This document shows, piece after piece, positions 35,829 to 63,224 of a stretch of 64,000 nt of DNA. The stretch's first letter is position 1, and each line of letters begins with the position of its first letter. The translations under genes and the position numbers were made by a program. The notes under the pieces are model-generated. The model made no database searches and had not been told where the DNA came from. It saw only the letters and a list, made by a program, of their open reading frames with translations. The DNA comes from Branchiostoma floridae (lineage: Eukaryota > Chordata > Leptocardii > Amphioxiformes > Branchiostomatidae), in assembly GCF_000003815.2 (NCBI RefSeq), contig NC_049994.1, forward strand, positions 6,733,923-6,797,922, in the 5' to 3' direction.

Positions 35829-36904
35829 ATGACAATGGCAGGACAAGGGTCTCCCACCGGAGTAGAGCAGAACTGCAATGGTGGGTCTCCCACCAGGGTT
35901 CTCCAGGTTGACAGCAAAAAAAGCAATGCTGAAGACCAGGCAGCACAAGATGTCAGCTTGAAAAACGCTGGTGAGGAACCATATATGTGTGCGATTTGTG
36001 GATTCAGGACAACAGAACAGTCTGACCTATTCCGACATATAAGATCCCATACAAGTGAGGAACCCTACCAGTGTGACCAGAGTGACTCTTCAGAAGCACA
36101 GAAGCCCAACCTTGACTACCATATATCAGCAAAACCTGGAGATGAGCATAAAGCAAACCATAGTGGTGAGAAACAACCCTACAGAGCAGATCAAAAGTCT
36201 CACCTATCTGAGCATATGAGAATACATACAGGAGGAAAACCCTTCAAGTGTGACCAGTGTGACTATTCTGCAACACGGAAGTCCCGCCTTGACCACCATG
36301 TGTCAACAAAACACAGAAATGAGGATGAAACAAACCCTTGTGCTAAGAAACCTTACATGATGTGTGGGGAGTGTAGGTACAAAACAACTCTTATGTCTGA
36401 CCTGTATCAGCATATGAAAACCCATAAAGGTGATCTTAAGAGACCCTACATGTGTGGGGAGTGTGGATGCAGGTTTGCACACAGGGGTGGCTTATCTGTA
36501 CATATGAGAAAACATACAGGAGAAAAACCCTACAAGTGTGACCTGTGCGACTATTCTACAGTTGTAAAATCCTGCTTTGAGGACCATAAAGCAAACCATA
36601 CCGGTGAGAAACCNNNNNNNNNNNNNNNNNNNNNNNNNNNNNNNNNNNNNNNNNNNNNNNNNNNNNNNNNNNNNNNNNNNNNNNNNNNNNNNNNNNNNNN
36701 NNNNNNNNNNNNNATCATATGAAAATCCATACAGGTAGAAAACCCTTCAAGTGTGACCAGTGTGACTATTCAACTGCTTGGAGCACTGCCTTTAAGCACC
36801 ATAAAGCAAAACACAGTGGTGAGAAACCCTACATGTGTGAAGTGTGTGGGTACCGATCAACTAGGAAGTGGGACTTGACTCGACATATGACAAAACATAC
36901 TTAA
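35829..36904 (+). CDS. C2H2 zinc-finger protein (exon interrupted by an assembly gap)
   Basis: One large open exon with TGEKPY-type linkers. Well-formed C2H2 fingers start at 'YMCAICGFR', 'FKCDQCDYSATRK', 'YMMCGECRYK', 'YMCGECGCRF' and 'YKCDLCDYSTVVK', and after the gap at 'FKCDQCDYSTAWS' and 'YMCEVCGYRS'. Two more are degraded: one ('YQCDQSDSSE') has Ser for its second cysteine, and the next ('PYRADQKSHLSEHMRIH') has lost the cysteine half. The gap (36614-36713) removes one or more fingers, and its size is nominal, so the frames on the two sides cannot be joined. ATG at 35829 follows an acceptor-like TTTCTCATTAG, so this may be the last of several exons. It is probably a nuclear DNA-binding protein. 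Orthology cannot be decided because such genes are numerous. Confidence 0.8.
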
Positions 36905-41642: not shown

Positions 41643-41944
41643 ATAATCCGAATTATAGAAAATATAAGCCATAAACTGTAACACAATGAATAATAATGTT
41701 GAAGAATTATGCGACGTAAGTCAATACGAAAGCGCTTTCAAGATAAAGAAATATTGGAACACTCTGTCATAAATTTTCGGGATCCAGGGGAGTAAAGTAT
41801 TTAATCGAAAACATAATCAAAGCAAAATGGACTTACAGGGAAATATGGTCAATTAGGGAAACAGTAATAAACTATGGACATGTATTCCTTGTCAGTCGTT
41901 TAAAGAAAAAAATTAACGAGTTCTCCATTTTCTTCACTTACGTC

Positions 41945-43226
41945 CTTTATACTTTGCATTATTTTTTTTGCTTTTTACAAACAGATGAGGACAATGTGGC
42001 ACTGCACTCAAATTTTTGAAATTTATATCAACCCTCAAGCACCCGACCTTTTTTTTGCGACTAAAATGACCGAGTGGGGTCCAAACGGACCCCAAAATGT
42101 TTTTCATAAAATCTTAATTCCAATTCTTATCGGTGATCATTGTACATACATTGCTTCGTCAATGTAAGAGAAATATTTTGAGATGTTAAGGTGTTGCTAA
42201 TTCCAGCTCATCATCATAATTTATGCAAAAGGTCAGAAGGGTCACTTTTGCACGAAAGCTATTCTGACCAGAGGGTGGAATTTTGAGGCCCTCAGCAACT
42301 TTTATGGCTTTTAACTCACTAACGGCTAAAGCTAAAGCTACGAAACTTGGTAATTTCTCACAAAATATTGTTAGCAAGAGTTTAAAGTCAATAAAATAAG
42401 TTTATCATTTTCTGGGGTCGCCATGGCAACATAATTATAACAGGCATATTTTTGCCAAAATTTGCCAATTTCGATTTAAACAAGATTCACTTGGTAAACT
42501 ACACTTGTTTTAATACAACAATTAAATTCTATGAAATTCACTGTAATTTTCGTAATTTAAAATTCATGATTTATGCTAATTTCATGATGTCATTGGTCAA
42601 AATCCAATATGGCCGCCCTTATAAACTAAATGACGTCATAATGTCATCATATTATATGGTGATGACACAGAAGTTTTTGTGAGGATACAGTTTTACATGT
42701 TTATCAATCTCTAAAAGTTTGGTGGTCATACGGTAAGTAGTTCAGGAGTTAGGTTCAAAAGTTTTTTTTTTAAATGTGCACGTGGACCCCAAACGGACTG
42801 AACACAGACTTTCTTTATAGTTTCCACAGTAATGTACCAATCTTCGTAAAAACTTAGGAGAAGGTATAACAGATGTTGACTGACAAAGTCACGGAAGGAA
42901 TTTTTCTTTAGATCATAAATGTTCAAATGGCACTTCAAAGTTTACGCCTGGGGTCCAAATGGACCCCACACGTGTGTTTGAGGGTTAACAGTGCCACATA
43001 CAAGGTATAGACAGAAAGTAAAGGTAGTCTTTTATCTCCCTGACCGAAGTCAGGTACCCATTTTGACACCTAGGTAAAGTGAGGAAGGTCGTGTAAAGTG
43101 CCTTTCCCAAGGGCACAACGTCGAGGGCACGGCGAGCTAGATCGAACTCAGGACCTATAGATTCCGTGCCGAACGCTCATAATACCAGCTACGCCACGTC
43201 TGACGCCACGATTCTTCTTTGTACTT
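41945..43226 (-). mobile_element. SINE insertion (with nested element) in the last exon of the minus receptor gene
   Basis: Minus strand: head at ~43216 with A-box-like TGGCGTAGCTGG and B-box GAGTTCGATC, then the 'GTTGTGCCCTTGGGAAAGGC...GGGTACCTGACTTCGGTC' body to ~43000. A TTAA element (42032-42984) follows, then the A-rich tail at ~41956-41990. Imperfect target duplications CTTTGTACTT (43217-43226) and CTTTATACTT (41945-41954) bracket it. The right arm reads straight through this place (62310-62330). Confidence 0.8.
42032..42984. mobile_element. piggyBac-type non-autonomous element B (nested in the SINE)
   Basis: Terminus CCCTCAAGCACCC preceded by TCAA (a one-base change from TTAA). The other end is TGTGTTTGAGGG followed by TTAA (42985-42988). 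Each subterminal region carries GGGGTCCAAANGGACCCC, near-palindromic. The interior has 'GCCATGGCAACATAA'. No transposase ORF. Confidence 0.8.
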
Positions 43227-46200
43227 CTTGTAGTCGTGACAGCCGCGGCAGCTACAGTGGTGGGACGTTCCACCGCACCAGTTTCCAGGGGAGCAGCATG
43301 GGGTTTCACCGTCAGGGGCACATTCAGCAGGGTTACCGTCTTCTGCAGGGTAACCCTTACCACATCTCAAGTCGTCTCGCCACTTATTCTTAAGACCTAT
43401 TGGTGTTAAGATTTGTATTAATCGATATTTACACAACAATTATCCCGTACATTAAGTAGGTGTATGATTATAAGTTCGTTATGATGCGGTTACATTTATG
43501 ATTGCAGTAAACCTTTTTTATGCAAATAGGCGTTTACATAAATTTTGAAAGTGATTTGCATCATTAATGAGCTTACACATGTCACAAGTAATTAAATTTC
43601 ATTATTCATCACTTTGATACATATTATGCCCTTTCTTGCAATTTTTTGCATTAATTATGCAAAGCATTACCTCATTTGCATGTTTGGCATCTGTTTATGT
43701 TTCACCAGTCATTATTTTTATCTTTTGTACATTTATTGAAGTCCACTTACGAAAAGCAATGCAAAAGTTCCTTATTTCTTATAAAAAATGAATCTGCATA
43801 ACATGTACGTATATCATTGCATACATCTTTGTCTAATCTACTTGCATGCCTTTAAAAATGAAAATCAGTCGTTCCTTACGTCACTTATCCTCTTTTTAGT
43901 GTTTTACAACATGCCCTTGCAGTTTCAAAATTAGATGTTAGGGGGCTCAAACAAGCCAAAGTTTTAGAGAAAGGATATGATAGAGTATTCTCATTAATTA
44001 TGCAACTGGCCTCCTATTTTGCATAACTTCAAACGATTATAGGGTTTACGACACAGATAGGTCAAAAGATTCTGTATGTACCTTTCCTCTGGTAGTAATT
44101 TCGATGTGGCCAACTGTCCCACTCAGAACCAGGATGTGCCGCCGTGTCTTTGGCACTTCTGAGGAGATAACACCGTGCACTACCGCCCTCTGGCGATCCC
44201 GCGGGGCGATGGTTGAAGGACAGACATGGCGGGCTGACGCCGTCGTACCTGCCATAACCTTTCAGACAACGGCGGGCACACTCGTCGGCGTCTATGTCGT
44301 TGTATGCTCTTATGAGGCCAGAAGAATCGCCGAAGAAACGACCCTTTTGCTTGGTGAAGAGGTTCTCGTACGATACAGTCGCTTAAAGGGAAACATTTGT
44401 AGCATTAGACAGGCAATAGTTGCGAGCGAATACATGAAATTTCACCCAACCCAAAAATGTGAATTTTAGACAAAATGCTCGGAACAAAAATGGACTCTGT
44501 TGGTAGCGCTTCCTGTTGAAATGGATCACGTCCAATGTGGAACTTTGTGGAAATTCACCTATGCACGACAATAGACCCTTCCACATGTAAAATGAACACG
44601 TCCAAAATTATTTACGCTCACAAAAGGGAATATTGAATTGTCAACCCAGTCCAAAATCAAATCAAGGAGAATTATCCATTTTGTGCAAAAATTGACACAC
44701 AGTGTAAAATAGTAAGATAAACTAGTCCAGATATGCTTTTACTCCGAACATGACCCTTTGTATAATCAACCAAGTCCATAATTGAATTGTATAAAATGTC
44801 CCAAGTACTTGATTGAATGTACTCTTGCAGTTTACATATTTGTGGATGTAAAATGGCAAAAAGCGCTTAAAGTGGTTCATCTAGTGGGGTAAATTAAGTC
44901 CGGGAATATGCATATCATTGGTCATCTGCTTTCAAGAATCAAGGAACAACAGCCGAAAATTTACAGTTTACGTCTACAAATGAATAGTTACTGTAGTTAT
45001 TCGGTTATACATATGTTAGAGGACAATTTTTGGGGGTAAAACAAGCGGCCAAAATGTTACATAAAACAATTGGTGTAATGTATGCCAAAAATATTATCGA
45101 AATCTTAGGCCATATCGTTTTAATTTTTGTTGATGTTTGAATTTGTAATTAAAAATACAAAGCAGGAGGGGTAAACTGCACAGATGGTAAAGCCAAAGGT
45201 GGAGATAAGGGCTTTCATATACTGGGAAATAAAACGAAGACACTACATGTATACTCCAGCTACACGTGTTATCATTTTCACAGCCCATTGAGTCTCGCAT
45301 GCAGGTTAATGTAAAATGGACCGTTCCAAAAACACTTATTTAAATGTAGACTGTTGCATAAATGCGCAATGTCCAAAATTGAATCTAAAAAAAATGTAGC
45401 CCATGTAGAAATGAAGTTTCCAATTTCCATACCTATGTAAAATAGGTCCCGAAGTAAAAAAGATACACTTTTGTATAATTACCCAGGTCACAAACTATAC
45501 TCCATGTGAAATAATTGAGTCTTTTCGAGACCTTACATTTCGGTTAAATAATACCCTGAAATCCAAAAATAACTCTACATTCTACGTTAGTGTCAGGCTT
45601 TGTGGTATGACCCACGCCTCGCCATATCAGACTTGGTTTGATTATGAATTAAGTGGAAAGTGTTATATTTCTCCTCGTCTTTTAGACAGAAATTATGCCA
45701 CACTACATTCTTATTTGATGGAAACTGATGGACAAGAGGACCCAAACTATACTACATTTGCAACATCGTAGACGACTGTTAATCAAATTTACATTTCATA
45801 GTTGGGTGGCCAAGAGTGTAGGCAGTATTAACATAAACAGTAGAGTTACCATGAAAATAGGTAGCAGGGTTACCGGCAATGTAGGCGGTGTCCACTGCAG
45901 GGTGACCATCGGTGTAGGTAGTGTCCACTGCAGGGTGACCATTGGTGTAGGTAGTGTCCACTGCAGGGTGACCATCGGTGTAGGTTATGTCCACTACAGG
46001 GTGGCCATTGGTATAGGCAGCGTCCATATCGTGGTAACCAGGAGTGAATGTTGTGTCCAAATCAAGGTGACCGGCAATGTAGGTAGTGTCCACTGCAGGA
46101 TGACCATCAGTGTAGGCAGTGTCCACTACAGGCTGACCATTGGTGTAGGCACCGTCCACACCATGGTGCACAGGGATGTACCTGTAGGTTGTGTCCAAAG

Positions 46201-48718
46201 CAAACTGCCCAGGGGTAGTTACAGCATCATCCGTCTGCCCCATCTGCAGAAAAGAACGTTTGTTTTAGTACATACAAGTAACAGAACTGGTGACTAATTT
46301 GAATAAGGACGATACTTTCCATCATGTTAAATGATATACAACGAACTATGCCTTCCTAAAGGGGCAGCAACATATTTTGCAATGGACAAAAACATAAGGG
46401 TAGGCTATAGCTCTGAACGGATTTTACCTTATGAACGGCCCGAATCCCGTTGTAGTAATACCAGGTTCCGAATACGGCCGATGCCGTCAGCAAAGCCGTT
46501 ATCATCACAGCAATACCTACACTGGCCACAGTAAACCCTGAACATACATAAGAAAGCAACGTTATTGTTTTTTTTTTGTGAAACTGACCCAAGCGCTCAT
46601 ATTAGGTCACATGTATTACAAAGAATCATCGGGAGGCGTATGATTTAGAAACCATCTTTAATAGAGCACCTTCGTTGATCCTTTGTGTTTATGGGTGCGA
46701 GTTTAAGACCAGCAGCTATTCCAAAGAACACTCGACGTGTGTAATGGAATTCAACGGGTCTTAAGTCAAGCCTATTGAATCTTTTACGGAAACATTAAGT
46801 AAAGTAAAACATTTTCTAAACAACCAAGTACATAATATCGTAATAGGATGTTAAAAAGCTTAAGGCTGCCCTTAAAATGGTCTATAACGCACGCAAACAT
46901 ATAGGATCTCCATATATAGGACCTGCAGTGGAACATAAAAAAACGGAGGAAAAGAAATAATATAGCTTAACTCTATTCAGACCGGGCTTTTCTGGTCATC
47001 CCTGGACGGTGGTGGTGGGGGGGGGGTATGAGGTCCTCCACTTCTAAGTCCTCTAACTCTTGAACGACGTGCCGTAGGGCCACCAAATTTTCAGGACATA
47101 ATATCGACATAATATCTGACGAGTATTTGATGTTTGACGTTACGTTGACGTAAGATTATATTTGACTATATTGATTATATTGGCCGGACCCATGAAAAAA
47201 GGGTATTCTCAGAAAACTTCAAGTTATACTACAAAAATATAACAACAAGTGCAGATGACAGATTAATAATGTTTATTACGACTTGTATTGCCAAAATGAC
47301 GTCATGCACATCTAAGATACGAGTTACGTTCCGCTATATTATATCCACCACCTTGAATTTTTAAAACTACCTTTTTTGCAACAAATTATCACAAAGGGCA
47401 ATGGAAATGGACTAAATTCATTCATTTAGATGGTTTTTGATGAAAAAATACCAGGTAGTTACAAATTCTAAGGGATGATTAGCTTGTTATTCTTGATCTG
47501 GCCATACGGTCCGCCATCTTGGATTTTGGGCTGATGACGTCATCAAATTAGCATAATGTACGCATGTATAATTATGAAAGATATTCTAAATAATATAAGA
47601 TTTTATTTATGTAACAAAATAGCAGTAATATAGCAAATAAATGTGAAAAATACGTTGTTGGAACCAAAAATAGTGATTTTTGGCAAAACTGCCTGTCAGC
47701 AAACGGTTGCCATGGCAACACGAAAAAAAGGAAAATTTGTCAAACTTCATAAAATTGTTGCCAACAATTTTTAGGAAAACTCACCAAATTTGGTGGCTTT
47801 AGCGTAAGGCGTTCTGGCGTTATAGGACATCGAAGTTGGCGCAGGCCTCAAAAGCCCCCCCCCCCCCCCCCGGTCTGTATAGGGTTAAAGGAAATGAAAG
47901 AATTAGAATAATCAAAATATATAAATTTATCATTTCAAATTGCTGTTGTAGGTAGGTACTGATGAACAACCAAAACAAATTATTTCAATTACATTTCATG
48001 AAACTATATCTGTACCTAAGGAAAACAACTTACGGCAACGTGCTTGTTGCGGAATGTTTGGAACATACATCGGATTCCTGTTCAGGGCGTCTGTTAAGGT
48101 ATTCGGATCTGCATTTGGGATATGCATGTTTGTAGGTATGTCGGTGTTACCATCTACAGGATCCATTTGGTCAGCAACCTGTTCAGTGGAGTTGCATCCT
48201 GATATGTGCGATGAGTCTTGGACTTCATATGCGACGGCATAAGGTTCAGCATTATCAGGTGTGGTGTAGACTGGTTCCGGAATTGCAGCCGCAATGTCGT
48301 TTTGGCAAATTATGCCTTTGCCATAATCATCGTTGTACGTTGTTGTAACAACTGTTGTTTCATATGGGTTGGTGCAGGAATGACAACCACTTGTCTTTGA
48401 TGTGTATCCAGAATCTGGTTGATTCACGGCTTTTGTGAGACACTTCTGTTTTCTGATAGTGTACAAGGGATTCGGGTATTTGCGACTTTGTCGGGAGGTT
48501 GCATTGATGCTTAATGTTGGAGTCACCATGTCATTCTGACACATGTTTTCATCAGTACCTGCATTAAAAGCGACATCATCTGAGGCAATTTTCATTCTAT
48601 CGATTGCATCTGCTGTTGTGTCAGGCGTATGTTTGTCATCATCGTGTTCTTTGCACCCGTTCAGTATGGAGGGATGTTTGTCCTTGTCTAATTTCCCGGA
48701 GACTTCGTGTGCGTGCAT
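43155..48718 (-). CDS. Type II membrane protein with repeat stalk, PAN/apple and hevein-like domains (minus paralogue)
   Basis: Coding exons, 5' to 3' on the minus strand: 48718-48034 (exon begins 48752), 46537-46428, 46243-45850, 44381-44082, 43396-43155; phases join into 576 residues. Order: cytoplasmic tail ~1-228 with NPLY and NPMY motifs and 'EPYAVAYEVQD'; transmembrane segment ('VGIAVMITALLTASAVFGTW'); ~11 stalk repeats of 11 residues (consensus GHPAVDTTYTD); a PAN/apple domain ('DADECARRCLKG'...'ARCYLLRS'); and a cysteine-rich domain with CCSPGNWCGGTSHHC, hevein-like. RxxR before the membrane segment suggests N-in orientation. It is probably a surface glycan- or protein-binding receptor, inferred from domains only. 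Compared with the plus paralogue, ~90 N-terminal residues are missing and the last 20 residues come from a SINE. The start is uncertain. Confidence 0.75.
43505..44035. repeat. Truncated relative of the 40550-41642 element (intron of the minus gene)
   Basis: Shares 'ATTAATGA..', 'ACACATGTCACAAGT', 'TTTGCATNTTTGGNATCTG' and 'AATCTACNTGCATGC' in the same order with 40600-40890. No terminal repeats. It is absent from the matching intron of the plus gene. Confidence 0.65.
44470..45540. repeat. Degenerate ~40-60 bp array in the intron before the PAN exon
   Basis: Many blurred repeats of 'TGTAAAATGnnnnCGTCCAAAATTG' and 'TTTGTATAATCAACCAAGTCC' fill this interval. The corresponding intron of the plus gene (60608-60963) is only 356 bp and has a few units, so the array grew in this arm or shrank in the other. 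The same motif recurs in the palindrome centre at 54410-54570. Confidence 0.6.
46971..47884. mobile_element. piggyBac-type non-autonomous element C (intron of the minus gene)
   Basis: TTAA at 46967-46970 and 47885-47888 flank termini CTCTATTCAGACCGGGC and CCGGTCTGTATAGGG. The interior contains 'GATGACGTCATCAAATTAGC' and 'GTTGCCATGGCAACACG' blocks shared with A, D and E. It lies in the intron between the cytoplasmic-tail exon and the transmembrane exon. The plus paralogue's intron lacks it. Confidence 0.9.
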
Positions 48719-48778
48719 CTTTTGTACAGCGTCAGTTAGATCATTTCCCGGCCTGTAGATACAAGTTTTAGAAAAGTA

Positions 48779-48780
<2 letters not shown>

Positions 48781-48832
<52 letters not shown>

Positions 48833-48835
48833 CTA

Positions 48836-48883
<48 letters not shown>

Positions 48884-48891
48884 ACTCCCCC

Positions 48892-48930
<39 letters not shown>
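48781..48930. repeat. (TA)n and (TC)n microsatellites
   Basis: (TA)n from about 48778 to 48829 followed by (TC)n to about 48922, just upstream of the first coding exon of the minus gene. Confidence 0.95.
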
Positions 48931-48935
<5 letters not shown>

Positions 48936-49678
48936 CACCCCCAAGAGTGTTATTGACTTCGCCCAGCTCTAAATCTCCTAGATCTGTTATCCCCTTTAGG
49001 GGACCAAACAGCTAGCGAGTTTTTGGAGTAGCCTTCCAAACCTCCTTACCTGTGTGGATGGGCGATAGAATCTCACCACCACTCCCCACACCTACCTATT
49101 TGAGATCTATTTCTTTGTACAAACGCGTCTTCAAACTGCCGCCATTTTGTGCATCCGCGGTATGTGGTGGATTTCGTTCCCAGAGTTTTAAAATCTTCTA
49201 CTCACAAATCATAAAATAACTGGAAAACGGCACCTATGTTCGTATTTTTGGACCAATTGGAACCCTGAAAAAAGCGAGTAGTATATGGGATATTAATGAC
49301 CTGGGTTTTGTAAAAATTGGAGCCTTCTGATCGGTCCACGTCTCCTTGCCATATGATGATAATGTATATTTCCCGGTAACATAACTAGAGAGAATTATTA
49401 GGTGTAGAATAAGAGATTTCTCAGAAAGGCTCCTGATGGGATCGTTAAGAGGTGTTGACATAATTGGTAGACATCTGCTTTGTATCTGCCCTTACCCAGC
49501 TGAAAGTCAAGATATATAATCAGAGATGTATTAGAACAAGCGGGCGGTAGGAGTAGACAAGAAATGTTCCAGTCTGAATAAAGAACTTTACATCTGCTAC
49601 AACAACTCTGCGCGTGTTTTCACGTCAAGACGTACCTCTCCACACATATACAGCAGCCATAAAGATATAAGTACTTAC

Positions 49679-58210: not shown

Positions 58211-58373
58211 GTAAGTACTTCTTCTGTCTTCACGGCTGTTGTATATGTGTGGGACAGAAAATAGAGGTATGTCAGCAAAAAAAGTGAGAACACATATACA
58301 TATATAAATACAGAACATTTGTTGATGGTGAGGATAAATCTTACTTACTCCAACCACAGGGCGAGGAATAAGC

Positions 58374-61300
58374 ATGGCTGAAGACACCCCCAACGGTGTT
58401 CTAAGGGTCCACATACAGTATGTCTGGGAAGACTGTTTGACGCCAATACGTTCAGATGCCCAAATAAAGACAGATTTGAAGCAATATGCTGTTTCAAACC
58501 CGCTACCGAATCCGATGTCCGAAATAGGTAATAGCCCAAGTGCAAATGAACCTGTCCAAGATAGCACTACCAAAGCTGGAATCCGATTTCCCCCAAATAC
58601 ATATAAGAACATCACTAACTCCTGGAACTTAGACAAGGACAAACATCCCTCCATACCTAACGGGTGCAATGAACACGATGATGACAACCATACGCCTGAA
58701 ATAACCGGAGATGCAATTGATAAGATCAAAATTGCCTCAGCTGATGTCAATTTCAATGCAGTTACTGATGAAAACATGTCCCAGAATGACATGGTGACTC
58801 CAAAATTAAGCACCAATGCAACCTCACAACAAGGTCTCAAGTACCCGAATCCCCTGTACACTATCACAAATCAGAAGTGTCCGACAAAAGCCGTGCATCA
58901 GCCAAATTCTGCATACATAGCAAACATAAGTGGCTGTCATTCCTGTACCGACCCATATACAGCAAGAGTTGTAACTACAACGTACAACGATGATTATGGC
59001 AAAGACATACATTCCCAAAACAACATTGTGGCTGAATTTCCAGAACCAGTCTACACCACACCTGATAATGCCGATTTGGAACCTTATCCCGTCGCATATG
59101 AAGTCCAAGACTCATCGCACATATCAGGATGTAACTCCACTGAGCAGGTTGCTGACCAAGTGGATCTTGTAGATGAAAACACCGACATACCTACAATCAG
59201 ACATATCCCAAATACAGATCCGAATACCTTAACAGACACCCTGAACAGGAATCCGATGTATGTGCCAAACATACCACAACAAGCACGTTGCCGTAAGTTG
59301 TTTTCCTTAGGTTCATATTTAGTTTCATGAAATGTTATCAAAATAATTTCATATGTATTGATAACATTTGTTTTGGTGGTTGACCAAGACCTACCCACAG
59401 CAGTAATTAAAACTAATAAACGCTATGTATTTCGTCAATTAGATTTTTTCCTTTCCTTTTAGCAGCATTTTACCGTTTTACTGGAAGTACTATCGATATT
59501 CCGTATGTATGTAAACATATTATGTAATTTCATTGCATTATAAACCATTTGAATGTCAGCATTTTTAACACCTTAATACGATATCATGCATTCCTTACTT
59601 GGTTGTCAATAAACTTTTTACTTTATGTTTCGGTAAGAGATTTTGACCTAAGTTGAAGTCCATTATACAACTGTTCTTCGGAATAGCTGCTGGTCTCAAA
59701 GTCGTACCCATAAACACAAAGAATCGACAAAGGTGCTCCATGGAAGATGGGTTCGGAATTCTCTGTCTCCTAATGATTCGTTTTACCACATGTGACCTGA
59801 TATGAGTGCTTGGTTCATTTTCACCAAAACCTTAACGTTGCTTTCTTATTACATGTCCATTCAGGGTGCACTGTAGCCAGGGTAGGCATTGCTGTGATGA
59901 TAACTGCCTTGATGACATCGGCCTTTTTCGGAACCTGGCTCTACTTCAACGGAAATTGGACCGTTCATAAGGTAAAGTTCGTTCCCAGCTGTAACCTTAA
60001 CGTAACTATGTCTTTGTCACATACAAAATATGTTGCTGGGCCTTGCTGGGCTGGGATAGGGAAGGATTGAGGAGGAGAGTCATGTCCATCCGTTCAACCA
60101 GCACCCGGGATGATGATGATGGGCCTTCAGGGATGCATCGTTCATTGTATACCATTTAACATGATAGACAACATCGTCTGTATTCAAAGTAGTCACCAGT
60201 TTTTTTTACCTGTATGTACTAAAACAAACTTTCCTATCTGCAGATGATGCAGGCTGATGCTGCTGTAACTACCCCTGGGCAGTCTGCTTTGGACACTGCA
60301 CACATCCATAGTCAGCCTGCCTTGGACACTGCCTACATTGCCGGCCACCCTGATGTGCACACAACATACACTCCTGGTCAGCAAGATGTGGACGTTACCT
60401 ATATCGATGGTCACCCCGCAGTGGGCACTGCCTACACCGATGGTCCACCTGCAGTGGACACTACCTACACTGATGGTCACGCTGCAGTGGACACTACCTA
60501 CATCCCTGGCCACCCTGCAGTGGACACTACCTACACTGATGGTCACCCTACTCCTGACACCACCTACATTGCCGGTCACCCAGCTGTGGACAATACCTAC
60601 CTCCACGGTAAAAGTTTATGATTGATTAATACTACTTGTCCATTTTTGCACAAAGTGGGTAATTTTCTTAAATTTGATTTTGGACTTCAAAATTTCATTT
60701 TTTGAGCATTGATAATTTTGAACGTGTTCATTTTACATGCGCAAGGGTCTATTGTCGTGCAAAGGTGAATTTCCACAAAGCTCAATTTTGGACCTGATCT
60801 GTTTCAACAGGAAGTACTAACAGAGTACATTTTTGTTCGGGGCCCGGGGTTGGCATTTTGTCTAAAATTCACATTTGGAACCGTCTATTTTTGGGTTGGG
60901 TGAAATTTCATGTATTCAATCGCAAATATTGCCTGTCTAATGCTACAAATGTTTCTCTTTAAGTGACAGCATCGTACGTGAACCTCTTCACCAAGGAAAA
61001 TGGTCGTTTCTTCGGTGATCATCCTGACCACATAGTGTCATACAGCGACATAGACGCAGACGAGTGTGCCCGCCGCTGTCTGCAAGGCTTCGGCAGTTAT
61101 GACGGCGTTAGCCGGGTATGTTCGTCCTTCAACCATCGCCCCGCGGGATCGCCAGAGGGTGGTAGTGCACGGTGTTGGCTCCGCAGTAGTGCCAAAGACA
61201 TAGCGGGATCTCCTGGTCCTGAGTGGGACAGTTGGCCACATCGAAATTACTACCAGAGGAAAGGTAAATACGTATTATTTTTATCTATCTGTGTCGCCAA

Positions 61301-62354
61301 GACAATTATCATTTTTTTGGCATTTCGCGACTTGCAGCCACAAAATGCCTTGTGGTCAGAAGATTTGCTGTTGTGATGTTGGAATTTTGAAATGAACGGA
61401 ACTATTCAATACATGTCATACATGTGTACATTTAAGCAATTCTTGGCAAAACGTCAGCTTTTTAAAGCACTTGTTTGACCACCTGCTAATTGTTAATCTT
61501 TATATTTCACCCGTACTTGCTGTTAAAAATTTATTCACGGGCATAGGGTAACCTTAAATCTAAGGGAAAAGGATTTTAAAAGTGTTTTTGTTACAAAAAA
61601 AAACTTTTTCGTAACCTCTGGCGCATTTCGCATGAAAATCTGTGTGTTTGGGGTAGGCATTACAAGTAAAAACAACACGGAGTATTTCATCACTCTCTAG
61701 GTCCTGGCCCTCCTGCGGGTTCACACGTGCGTACATGTATATACTCAAGTCCGTATGAGGTTCGAAGTAAAGTCGTAGCCATTACTAGGCGCCAGAGGTC
61801 GCTGGACATATAATCAATTTAGAAATTGGACAAACATAGCCAGATATCACACCGCAGGAGCAAGCTGGCAATTTCTGCTATTTTCCTTAGCCATCCATGG
61901 AGCCAGGTAGAGGCTAAGAATTTTATACGGAAATCATACGGACTTGAATGTATACGCACATGTGAACCTGGCTTTAAGCTTAGACCTTTGTACGATCATG
62001 TCCGCTTCTCCTCAGGTGGTACCTCGGGTGATACAGAATCTGACGTTTATATTCAAAATCTACCAAACATCGCATTTCAGGCATCATGTTGGCGTGCGAA
62101 GCTCTTCGTAAATATTGATTAAACAAACCTTAACACCAACAGGTCTTAAGAAGAAGTATCGAGACGACTTGCGATGCGGCTGGGGATACCCTGCAGAAGA
62201 CGGTAACACTGCTGAATGTGACCCTGACGGGAAAGCTCCATGCTGCTCCCTTGCAAAGTGGTGCGGTGGCTCTATCAACCACTGTAACTGCCCCGGCTGT
62301 ATCGACTTCAAGAAGTATAAAGGACGAACCGTGAATATATGGAGAATTCGTTAA
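58374..62354 (+). CDS. Type II membrane protein with repeat stalk, PAN/apple and hevein-like domains (plus paralogue)
   Basis: Coding exons: 58374-59292 (exon begins 58360), 59865-59971, 60244-60607, 60964-61263, 62143-62354; 633 residues in frame. Order: cytoplasmic tail 1-~306 with NPLY, NPMY, PVYTTP and 'EPYPVAYEVQD'; transmembrane segment ~313-334; stalk 343-463 of ten 11-residue repeats; PAN/apple domain 464-563 ('DADECARRCLQG'...'ARCWLRSS'); and a C-terminal domain 564-633 with eight cysteines, including CCSLAKWCGGSINHC, hevein-like. Charges (R307, R312 on the tail side) suggest N-in. PAN domains bind protein or carbohydrate and hevein folds bind chitin, so a surface receptor is plausible but inferred. 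ATG at 58374 has a G at +4 and follows a good acceptor. This copy keeps the likely ancestral C-terminus ('KYKGR'). Confidence 0.82.
61610..62095. mobile_element. Inverted-repeat element in the last intron of the plus gene
   Basis: GTTCACACGTGCGTACATG..CAAGTCCGTATGA (about 61719-61757) pairs with TCATACGGACTTGAATGTAT and ACGCACATGTGAAC (61937-61970). Weaker pairing extends outward. It is probably an old MITE. The matching intron of the minus gene does not show it. Confidence 0.5.
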
Positions 62355-63224
62355 GCTGTTTCTTCAAACGACTAACAAGGCATCCATGTCCATAGTTTAT
62401 TACAGCGCCCCTAATTGGCCATTTTTCCTGTAAGTCCTTTTTGTTTTGATTATGTTTTTGATCATATAATTCACCCCTCTGGATCCCTAAAACTTGAGAG
62501 GGTGCCTCAAAATGTCCTTATGTTGAAAGGGCTTTCGTATTGACTTTGGTAGCATTCTGCAACATTATTAACCATTTTGTTACAGTTTATGGCATCTATT
62601 TTCTATTTCAGCTTTTTAACTGATTTTGAGTTTGAAAAACTCATACCTCTGATTCCTATCAATGAAGTTTATCTTTTTGTCTCTTAAAATGGATCTCTTG
62701 CCACTAGTTCGTTTTCTGACATTGTTACACAACATCATTTTATCAGTGGGCTCTATTTACGTTCTTCTACTGCAGATTATAAGGCAATGTGCTTAACTCA
62801 AAATTTTATTATCCAGACCGGATGTCTTGCAGCATCGTAAAGCAAGTCGATCGATTTTATCCACGTCCTTCTTACAACAATACGGAGAAGGGTTAGACTT
62901 AGCCCTTAAGAAGAAAACTAGGATCCTTAATTTGATGTTTCAATTGTATTTGTTTTTCTATTTATGTTGATTAATCTTCGTTAGTCGTATTCTTTTCTTG
63001 TTTGACGACATTGATGATATAAACTTGCATCATTAACATAGTATGTAAATCAATGAAACTTGTATAATTCATAATGTAAGAAAGTTCATCAAAATAGGTT
63101 GGTCAAAAATGGTGGATCCAAGCGGGTAGCTTTATTGTGAATAAATTTCTGTGACGTAACGTTAATGTCGTTTTAAAATGATGATAATTATCTTCAACTA
63201 TAAGAAAATATGTCAACCCAGACA

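Follow-up and report, generated by a model that had tools for sequence, protein, structure and literature searches.

The window, that is, the whole stretch of 64,000 nucleotides that was analysed (C16:6733923-6797922), contains two gene copies arranged head to head in inverted arms, the left copy on the minus strand and the right copy on the plus strand. All genome searches were done within one assembly of 513 Mb and 431 contigs. Each copy was modelled by hand with five exons and four GT-AG introns, coding for 579 residues in the left copy and 636 residues in the right copy (stop excluded). The modelled copies start with an N-terminal region, which is followed by a hydrophobic segment and by 11-residue repeats; then come a cysteine-containing exon and a cysteine-rich last exon.

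In the left copy (minus strand throughout) exon 1 was modelled at 48016-48718 and exon 2, with the hydrophobic, probably transmembrane segment (the topology being a prediction), at 46437-46537. Exon 3 with the 11-residue repeats lies at 45850-46243 and the cysteine-containing exon 4 at 44082-44381. The repeats are 33-bp tandem units (e.g. HPAVDTTYTDG), found at 45850-46243 and at 60244-60607, and their make-up differs between the arms. Exon 4 may resemble PAN domains, a likeness for which Pfam gave no support. Exon 5, the last coding exon, was delimited by translation and by its AG acceptor; it lies at 43155-43396 and contains the cysteine-rich domain, the residues KYK, a new tail and a TAG stop codon. 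The corresponding exon of the right copy (62143-62354, plus strand; translation and hand model) ends in KYKGRTVNIWRIR and a stop codon. The last-exon domain had genome matches at 150 scored places, from 222 candidates. Pfam searches with the last-exon proteins and with the whole left protein gave nothing but Chitin_bind_1 in the last exon, below the threshold.

Left exon 1 does not contain the first part of exon 1 of the right copy. Homology to the right arm begins at left position 48701, adjoining AT and CT microsatellites; the sequence upstream is replaced, and the start of exon 1 in the left model is a modelling choice. The N-terminus of the left copy may therefore have been rewritten too, and the stretches to compare are 48701-49640 on the left and 58252-58619 on the right.

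Translation of the left last exon gave ...HDYKKYK followed by EESWRQTWRSWYYERSARNL and a TAG at 43155-43157 (minus strand). An earlier reading made from the sequence only had placed this stop codon inside a tRNA-type SINE, and the translation agreed with this. The same reading had derived 20 residues from the SINE head. The predicted tail after KYK is indeed 20 residues long and consists of EES, then WRQTWRSWYYERSARNL, then the TAG; the SINE, however, starts at 43209, so that only the last base of the S codon and the 17 whole codons at 43158-43208 for WRQTWRSWYYERSARNL come from the element. The present length of the tail was not simply delivered by the SINE either: the family consensus in this frame stops earlier, at CTGGTAG, and this TAG is skipped in the window copy by a 4-nt insertion, TTAT, at 43179-43182 (minus strand), which was present in 0 of 29 other copies. 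The element is in frame with the host exon and the stop lies within the element, as in other transposable element-derived C-termini. The SINE has thus replaced the predicted C-terminus of the minus-strand paralogue. Read in one of its frames, the SINE consensus has no stop for about 70 codons from the 5' end; a copy inserted in that phase would extend a protein considerably.

The left copy does carry an insertion in its last coding exon. As had been read from the letters, the exon is split after KYK, reads on into the SINE and has an uninterrupted counterpart in the right arm. The flanks of the left insertion had their matches on the right arm at 62108-62333 and 62313-62621; that arm is thus unbroken at the site, and the two flanks overlap on it from 62313. 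An alignment to the right arm had been proposed as a check in the sequence-only reading. Two paralogues elsewhere on C16, L004 and L006, are also without the insert. Near-identical 10-bp duplications had been described on either side of the insert, and these were found as a 5' copy, AAGTACAAAG, at 43217-43226 and a 3' copy, AAGTATAAAG, at 41945-41954 (both minus strand), identical at 9 of 10 positions. As bare letters this repeat was within chance, since 1981 of 5000 shuffled 5' flanks reached its score; it is taken as a target-site duplication because both flanks overlap on the SINE-free right arm. A stretch of 7 nt (43210-43216, minus strand) between the duplication and the SINE is filler, or else it belongs to a longer duplication that has decayed. 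Five to nine nucleotides between duplication and element were also present in other SINE copies (L021, L022, L030, L034, L033 and L035).

The SINE (41955-43209, minus strand) lies in sense to the gene and is split into a body at 43209-42985 and 42027-41962, followed by an A-rich 3' end to 41955. It starts with GTGGCGTC and is 291 nt long without the element nested in it. Its extent was determined by alignment with 29 other copies, which were fetched from 40 scored matches among 2366 first-look candidates. In all 29 copies the match started no more than 6 nt from the 5' end of the consensus, and 28 reached position 268 or beyond in the 275-nt consensus, the remaining copy (L015) ending at 218. 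The family thus behaves as expected of a SINE, with numerous short copies scattered through the genome that share one 5' end and finish in an A-rich stretch. Exact target duplications of 9-14 bases flanked 13 of the 29 other copies, not all of them independent, as two pairs have common flanks; at the other 16 copies the duplications were imperfect, short, weak or missing.

The window copy differed from the consensus of 30 rows at 20 of 266 sites (K2P 0.080), and the other copies had K2P distances of 0.023-0.064, with L015 at 0.174; this consensus may lean towards the window copy, as the copies were picked by their likeness to it. No tRNA genes were found by ARAGORN in the window or in 27 of the 29 other SINE loci (all but L015 and L022), and no tRNA match up to an E value of 1 was found in Rfam for a 1.4-kb stretch of the window and four SINE loci. 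The label tRNA-type is thus putative and goes back to an apparent likeness of the internal promoter boxes. A single sub-threshold Rfam match in the insert was taken as chance. Copies L021 and L022, on different contigs, have printed flanks in common on both sides, and the flanks of L033 and L035, both on one contig, are almost the same; either the segments are duplicated or they were assembled twice. The flank of another SINE locus contains a long hairpin (L031, 1180-1360), which matched several miRNA models below their gathering scores.

The insert is not wholly SINE, as had been supposed. Its 1.25 kb consist of the 291-nt SINE and a 953-nt element at 42032-42984, which had been counted as SINE and which rules out a single SINE of that length. 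This nested element has the ends CCCTCAA...TTGAGGG and was delimited by family matches and by the ends of 19 fetched copies. One copy of its TTAA target, at 42985-42988, is also SINE consensus sequence in the alignment; the second copy, at 42028-42031, now reads TTGA on the minus strand. Including the window copy, 41 matches to this family were listed, of which 40 had a length of about 840 nt or more. Each of the 19 fetched copies had TTAA at one end or more and 10 of them had it at both, and the TTAA/TTGA pair of the window copy agrees with such a target duplication. The inverted terminal repeats of the window copy, CCCTCAA and TTGAGGG, are accompanied by a subterminal palindrome, found near both ends in the form TGGGGTCC...GGACCCCA. 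Open frames in the consensus of these 19 copies were at most 95 codons long. By its TTAA target and its inverted ends the element would fit a non-autonomous, TTAA-target DNA transposon (a piggyBac-like MITE). The LanceletTn series of amphioxus MITEs reportedly also consists of short non-coding DNA elements with inverted ends. The nested element is like them in this description; with its TTAA targets and CCCTCAA ends it could be a member of the series or of another. The window copy differed from the consensus of the 19 fetched copies by 7.4% (5.0-7.6% for the 19 copies themselves), as against 8.0% for the SINE, which is in keeping with the nesting.

The SINE tail would remain untranslated if the message were spliced at a cryptic site or ended at an earlier poly(A) site. 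Inserts in 3' regions commonly gain regulatory use, and an ATTAAA is present in the insert at 42514, within the nested element, with others beyond the insert. The ATTAAA of the insert, however, comes after the TAG, the exon stays open from KYK into the element, and the domain ahead of KYK is intact, so that processing of this kind seems quite improbable.

The sequence-only reading had taken KYKGRK and a stop codon as the original end of the protein and the right arm as its uninterrupted state. Each claim was right in part. The letters for this end are present beyond the insertion, and the right arm is SINE-free; neither arm, however, carries the ancestral tail. In L006 and L004 the frame continues from the domain into YRYKGLTVKKREHSLKCFFKRLSNSPCP and YRFKGLNVKKREHSLKCLFKRLSNSPCP, respectively, each followed by a stop codon. 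This tail of about 27 residues is basic and ends in FKRLSNSPCP. The two tails were identical at 77 of 83 bases without gaps, and in the next 120 bases 94 of 112 were identical with 16 gap columns.

A search with domain and tail of L006 as an 80-residue query, in which 150 places out of 225 candidates were scored, matched L006 and L004 over the full length of the query, at 100% and 81% identity. Five other places reached query residue 78-80 at 44-62% identity (C13:5043503, C14:18044393, C6:23099009, C6:3596076 and C7:24771247), the match at C6:3596076 containing a stop. Two of these tails were examined (L064 and L065), and in L065 a PCP follows a basic stretch. A distant form of the tail may thus occur outside C16.

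Remnants of the same tail were aligned in both arms. On the left, the displaced 3' coding end lies beyond the present stop at 41872-41954 (minus strand), with the remnant VKKMENSLIFFFKRLTRNTCP and its stop out of frame and GRK-TGA in the frame of KYK. On the right, the SINE-free target and the remnant YMENSLSCFFKRLTRHPCP with its stop, likewise out of frame, lie at 62313-62395 (plus strand). In 5000 shuffles none reached the score of either remnant peptide. In the alignment the left remnant is without a base after GTAA and the right remnant without a base after GTGAA. The tail was apparently put out of frame in the arms by two separate 1-bp deletions, although the stretch is so short that a shared deletion is possible. 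On this alignment KYKGRK-TGA is a frameshifted reading of the tail remnant. KYKGRK-stop and the right-arm end were both rejected as the ancestral end in view of the in-frame tails of L004 and L006 and the out-of-frame remnants in the arms.

It is a different question whether the left protein ended in KYKGRK just before the SINE arrived. GRK-TGA follows the 3' duplication copy in frame, and the 1-bp deletion on the left may be older than the SINE. Such an end would require the deletion to come before the insertion and would be derived anyhow; two SINE-free paralogues continue into the common tail, which persists in another frame in the left arm. We therefore regard it as unlikely that KYKGRK was the end immediately before the insertion. 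The 5' duplication copy was set aside as proof that the left deletion came after the SINE, as filler of 5-9 nt is present in other copies. The deletion may have come before or after the SINE insertion, as the 7 nt before the SINE may be either filler or the decayed part of a longer duplication.

A further paralogue, L003 (C16:2796912-2797102 with flanks; the same locus as L075), has a stop after CYG, followed by sequence unlike that of the other four. This downstream sequence holds repeats of the form TTTAGAACAC, and the tail is lost here for a third time.

The left gene is probably still coding after the insertion. This is suggested by its five open exons with GT-AG introns and by the four exons that were compared between the arms (exon 3 with the repeats and the tail being left out), in which no frameshift was found. 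The codon alignment of these four exons comprised 416 codons with two gaps, both of whole codons, while in four non-coding blocks (1054 aligned sites) gaps opened 29 times, in 24 cases with a length not divisible by three. At the nucleotide level, exon 4 contained one pair of 1-bp gaps that cancel each other, and the last exon another. The values of dN (0.124) and dS (0.212) gave a dN/dS of 0.59, which is mild constraint only. Changes unique to one copy in the last exon had amino-acid to silent ratios of 5:1 in the left copy, 6:3 in the right copy, 5:4 in L006 and 2:1 in L004.

The ratio of 5:1 could also be expected of a left paralogue that is a pseudogene or dying, in which the SINE hit an unneeded gene and no protein with the new tail is made. 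Two mobile elements within a coding exon would fit this, as would the missing first residues of exon 1 next to the microsatellites. The open exons, the four GT-AG introns and the contrast between 416 codons without a frameshift and the gap-rich non-coding blocks argue for a gene that was kept intact. When neutral substitution was simulated on the left frame of 1677 nt (2000 runs), only 1.05% of the runs remained without a stop at 8% divergence, the approximate age of the insertion, although at 4% the value was an unremarkable 11.55%. Decay of the left gene thus appears rather unlikely, and a coding gene with a SINE-derived tail is preferred.

The best explanation overall, to which we assign a probability of about 0.8, is that a SINE, later joined by a nested TTAA element, supplied the predicted tail of the left copy and left the former tail untranslated. 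After the arms of the inverted duplication had separated, a SINE of an abundant family would have entered the last coding exon of the left copy in sense orientation, duplicating about 10 bp of the target. Ribosomes passing KYK would then have read the short spacer and the SINE head, 20 residues in all, and stopped at the TAG of the SINE, so that the former C-terminal tail would have become 3' untranslated sequence. The 953-nt TTAA element entered the SINE later and would have lengthened the untranslated part only. The right copy lost the same tail through an apparent 1-bp change of its own. The distance of the SINE from its consensus (0.080) is less than half of the dS between the arms (0.212), as expected if the SINE came after the split; this dating presupposes similar neutral rates and a consensus from copies picked by likeness to the window copy. 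It is an established rule that a message with its stop codon in the last exon escapes nonsense-mediated decay. The left message should escape it as well, because its stop lies in the last exon. Of this account, the insertion, the nesting, the reading frame, the SINE-free paralogues, the homology of the tails and the frame kept in the exons compared are seen in the sequence; the sequence of events (nesting excepted), translation of the tail, escape from decay and a slight effect on function are inferred.

Among 30 fetched paralogue loci (the best-scoring ones, both arms included) readable tails were obtained from 29, L075 having failed the motif; they were 5 to 68 residues long with a median of 21. 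In this sample of 29 the tail is the loosest part of the family. With tails of such different lengths the rewriting of the C-terminus was probably near-neutral. The losses may also be read jointly, as those of a receptor-like family whose tail is a tolerated hot zone, the ancestral tail being lost separately in the left copy (SINE), in the right copy (frameshift) and in L003 (other sequence), and the SINE tail being kept and lengthened under selection; as a whole this seems very unlikely.

C-termini and stop codons derived from transposable elements are known as a general class in host proteins, with examples from Alu and other SINEs. The left copy resembles them in that an element within the coding sequence provides the last residues and the stop and leaves the old end untranslated. 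Many known cases are spliced exonizations, whereas here the element lies directly in the last exon without splicing. A further difference is the second element nested in the first. The event is an ordinary member of this well-documented class; what sets it apart is that a second element is nested in the first and that both arms have lost one and the same tail, apparently each in its own way. The literature matches listed included no paper on this locus.

A close parallel, in what is probably the same kind of animal, concerns another gene family, the amphioxus opsins, in which the last exon and the C-terminus are variable as well. According to PMC5802833, the last exons of these genes show pronounced changes in size, and the C-terminus is their most variable part; one opsin last exon ends in palindromic repeats. 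The elements named there include DNA transposons (LanceletTn-2 among the names given), a satellite and repeats, and the term SINE does not occur in the main text (PMC5802833).

The functional weight of the new C-terminus is probably small because the tails of the family vary so much, and the general phenomenon is known. The left copy is nevertheless a clean worked case, in which a mobile element gives the predicted end of a protein, SINE-free paralogues are at hand and the displaced tail is recognisable. The nested later insertion supplies a relative order. The locus also carries a warning that the nearest paralogue may not show the ancestral state, both copies being without the same tail. Elsewhere in the window, at 36036-36802, there are repeats resembling C2H2 zinc-finger coding units.
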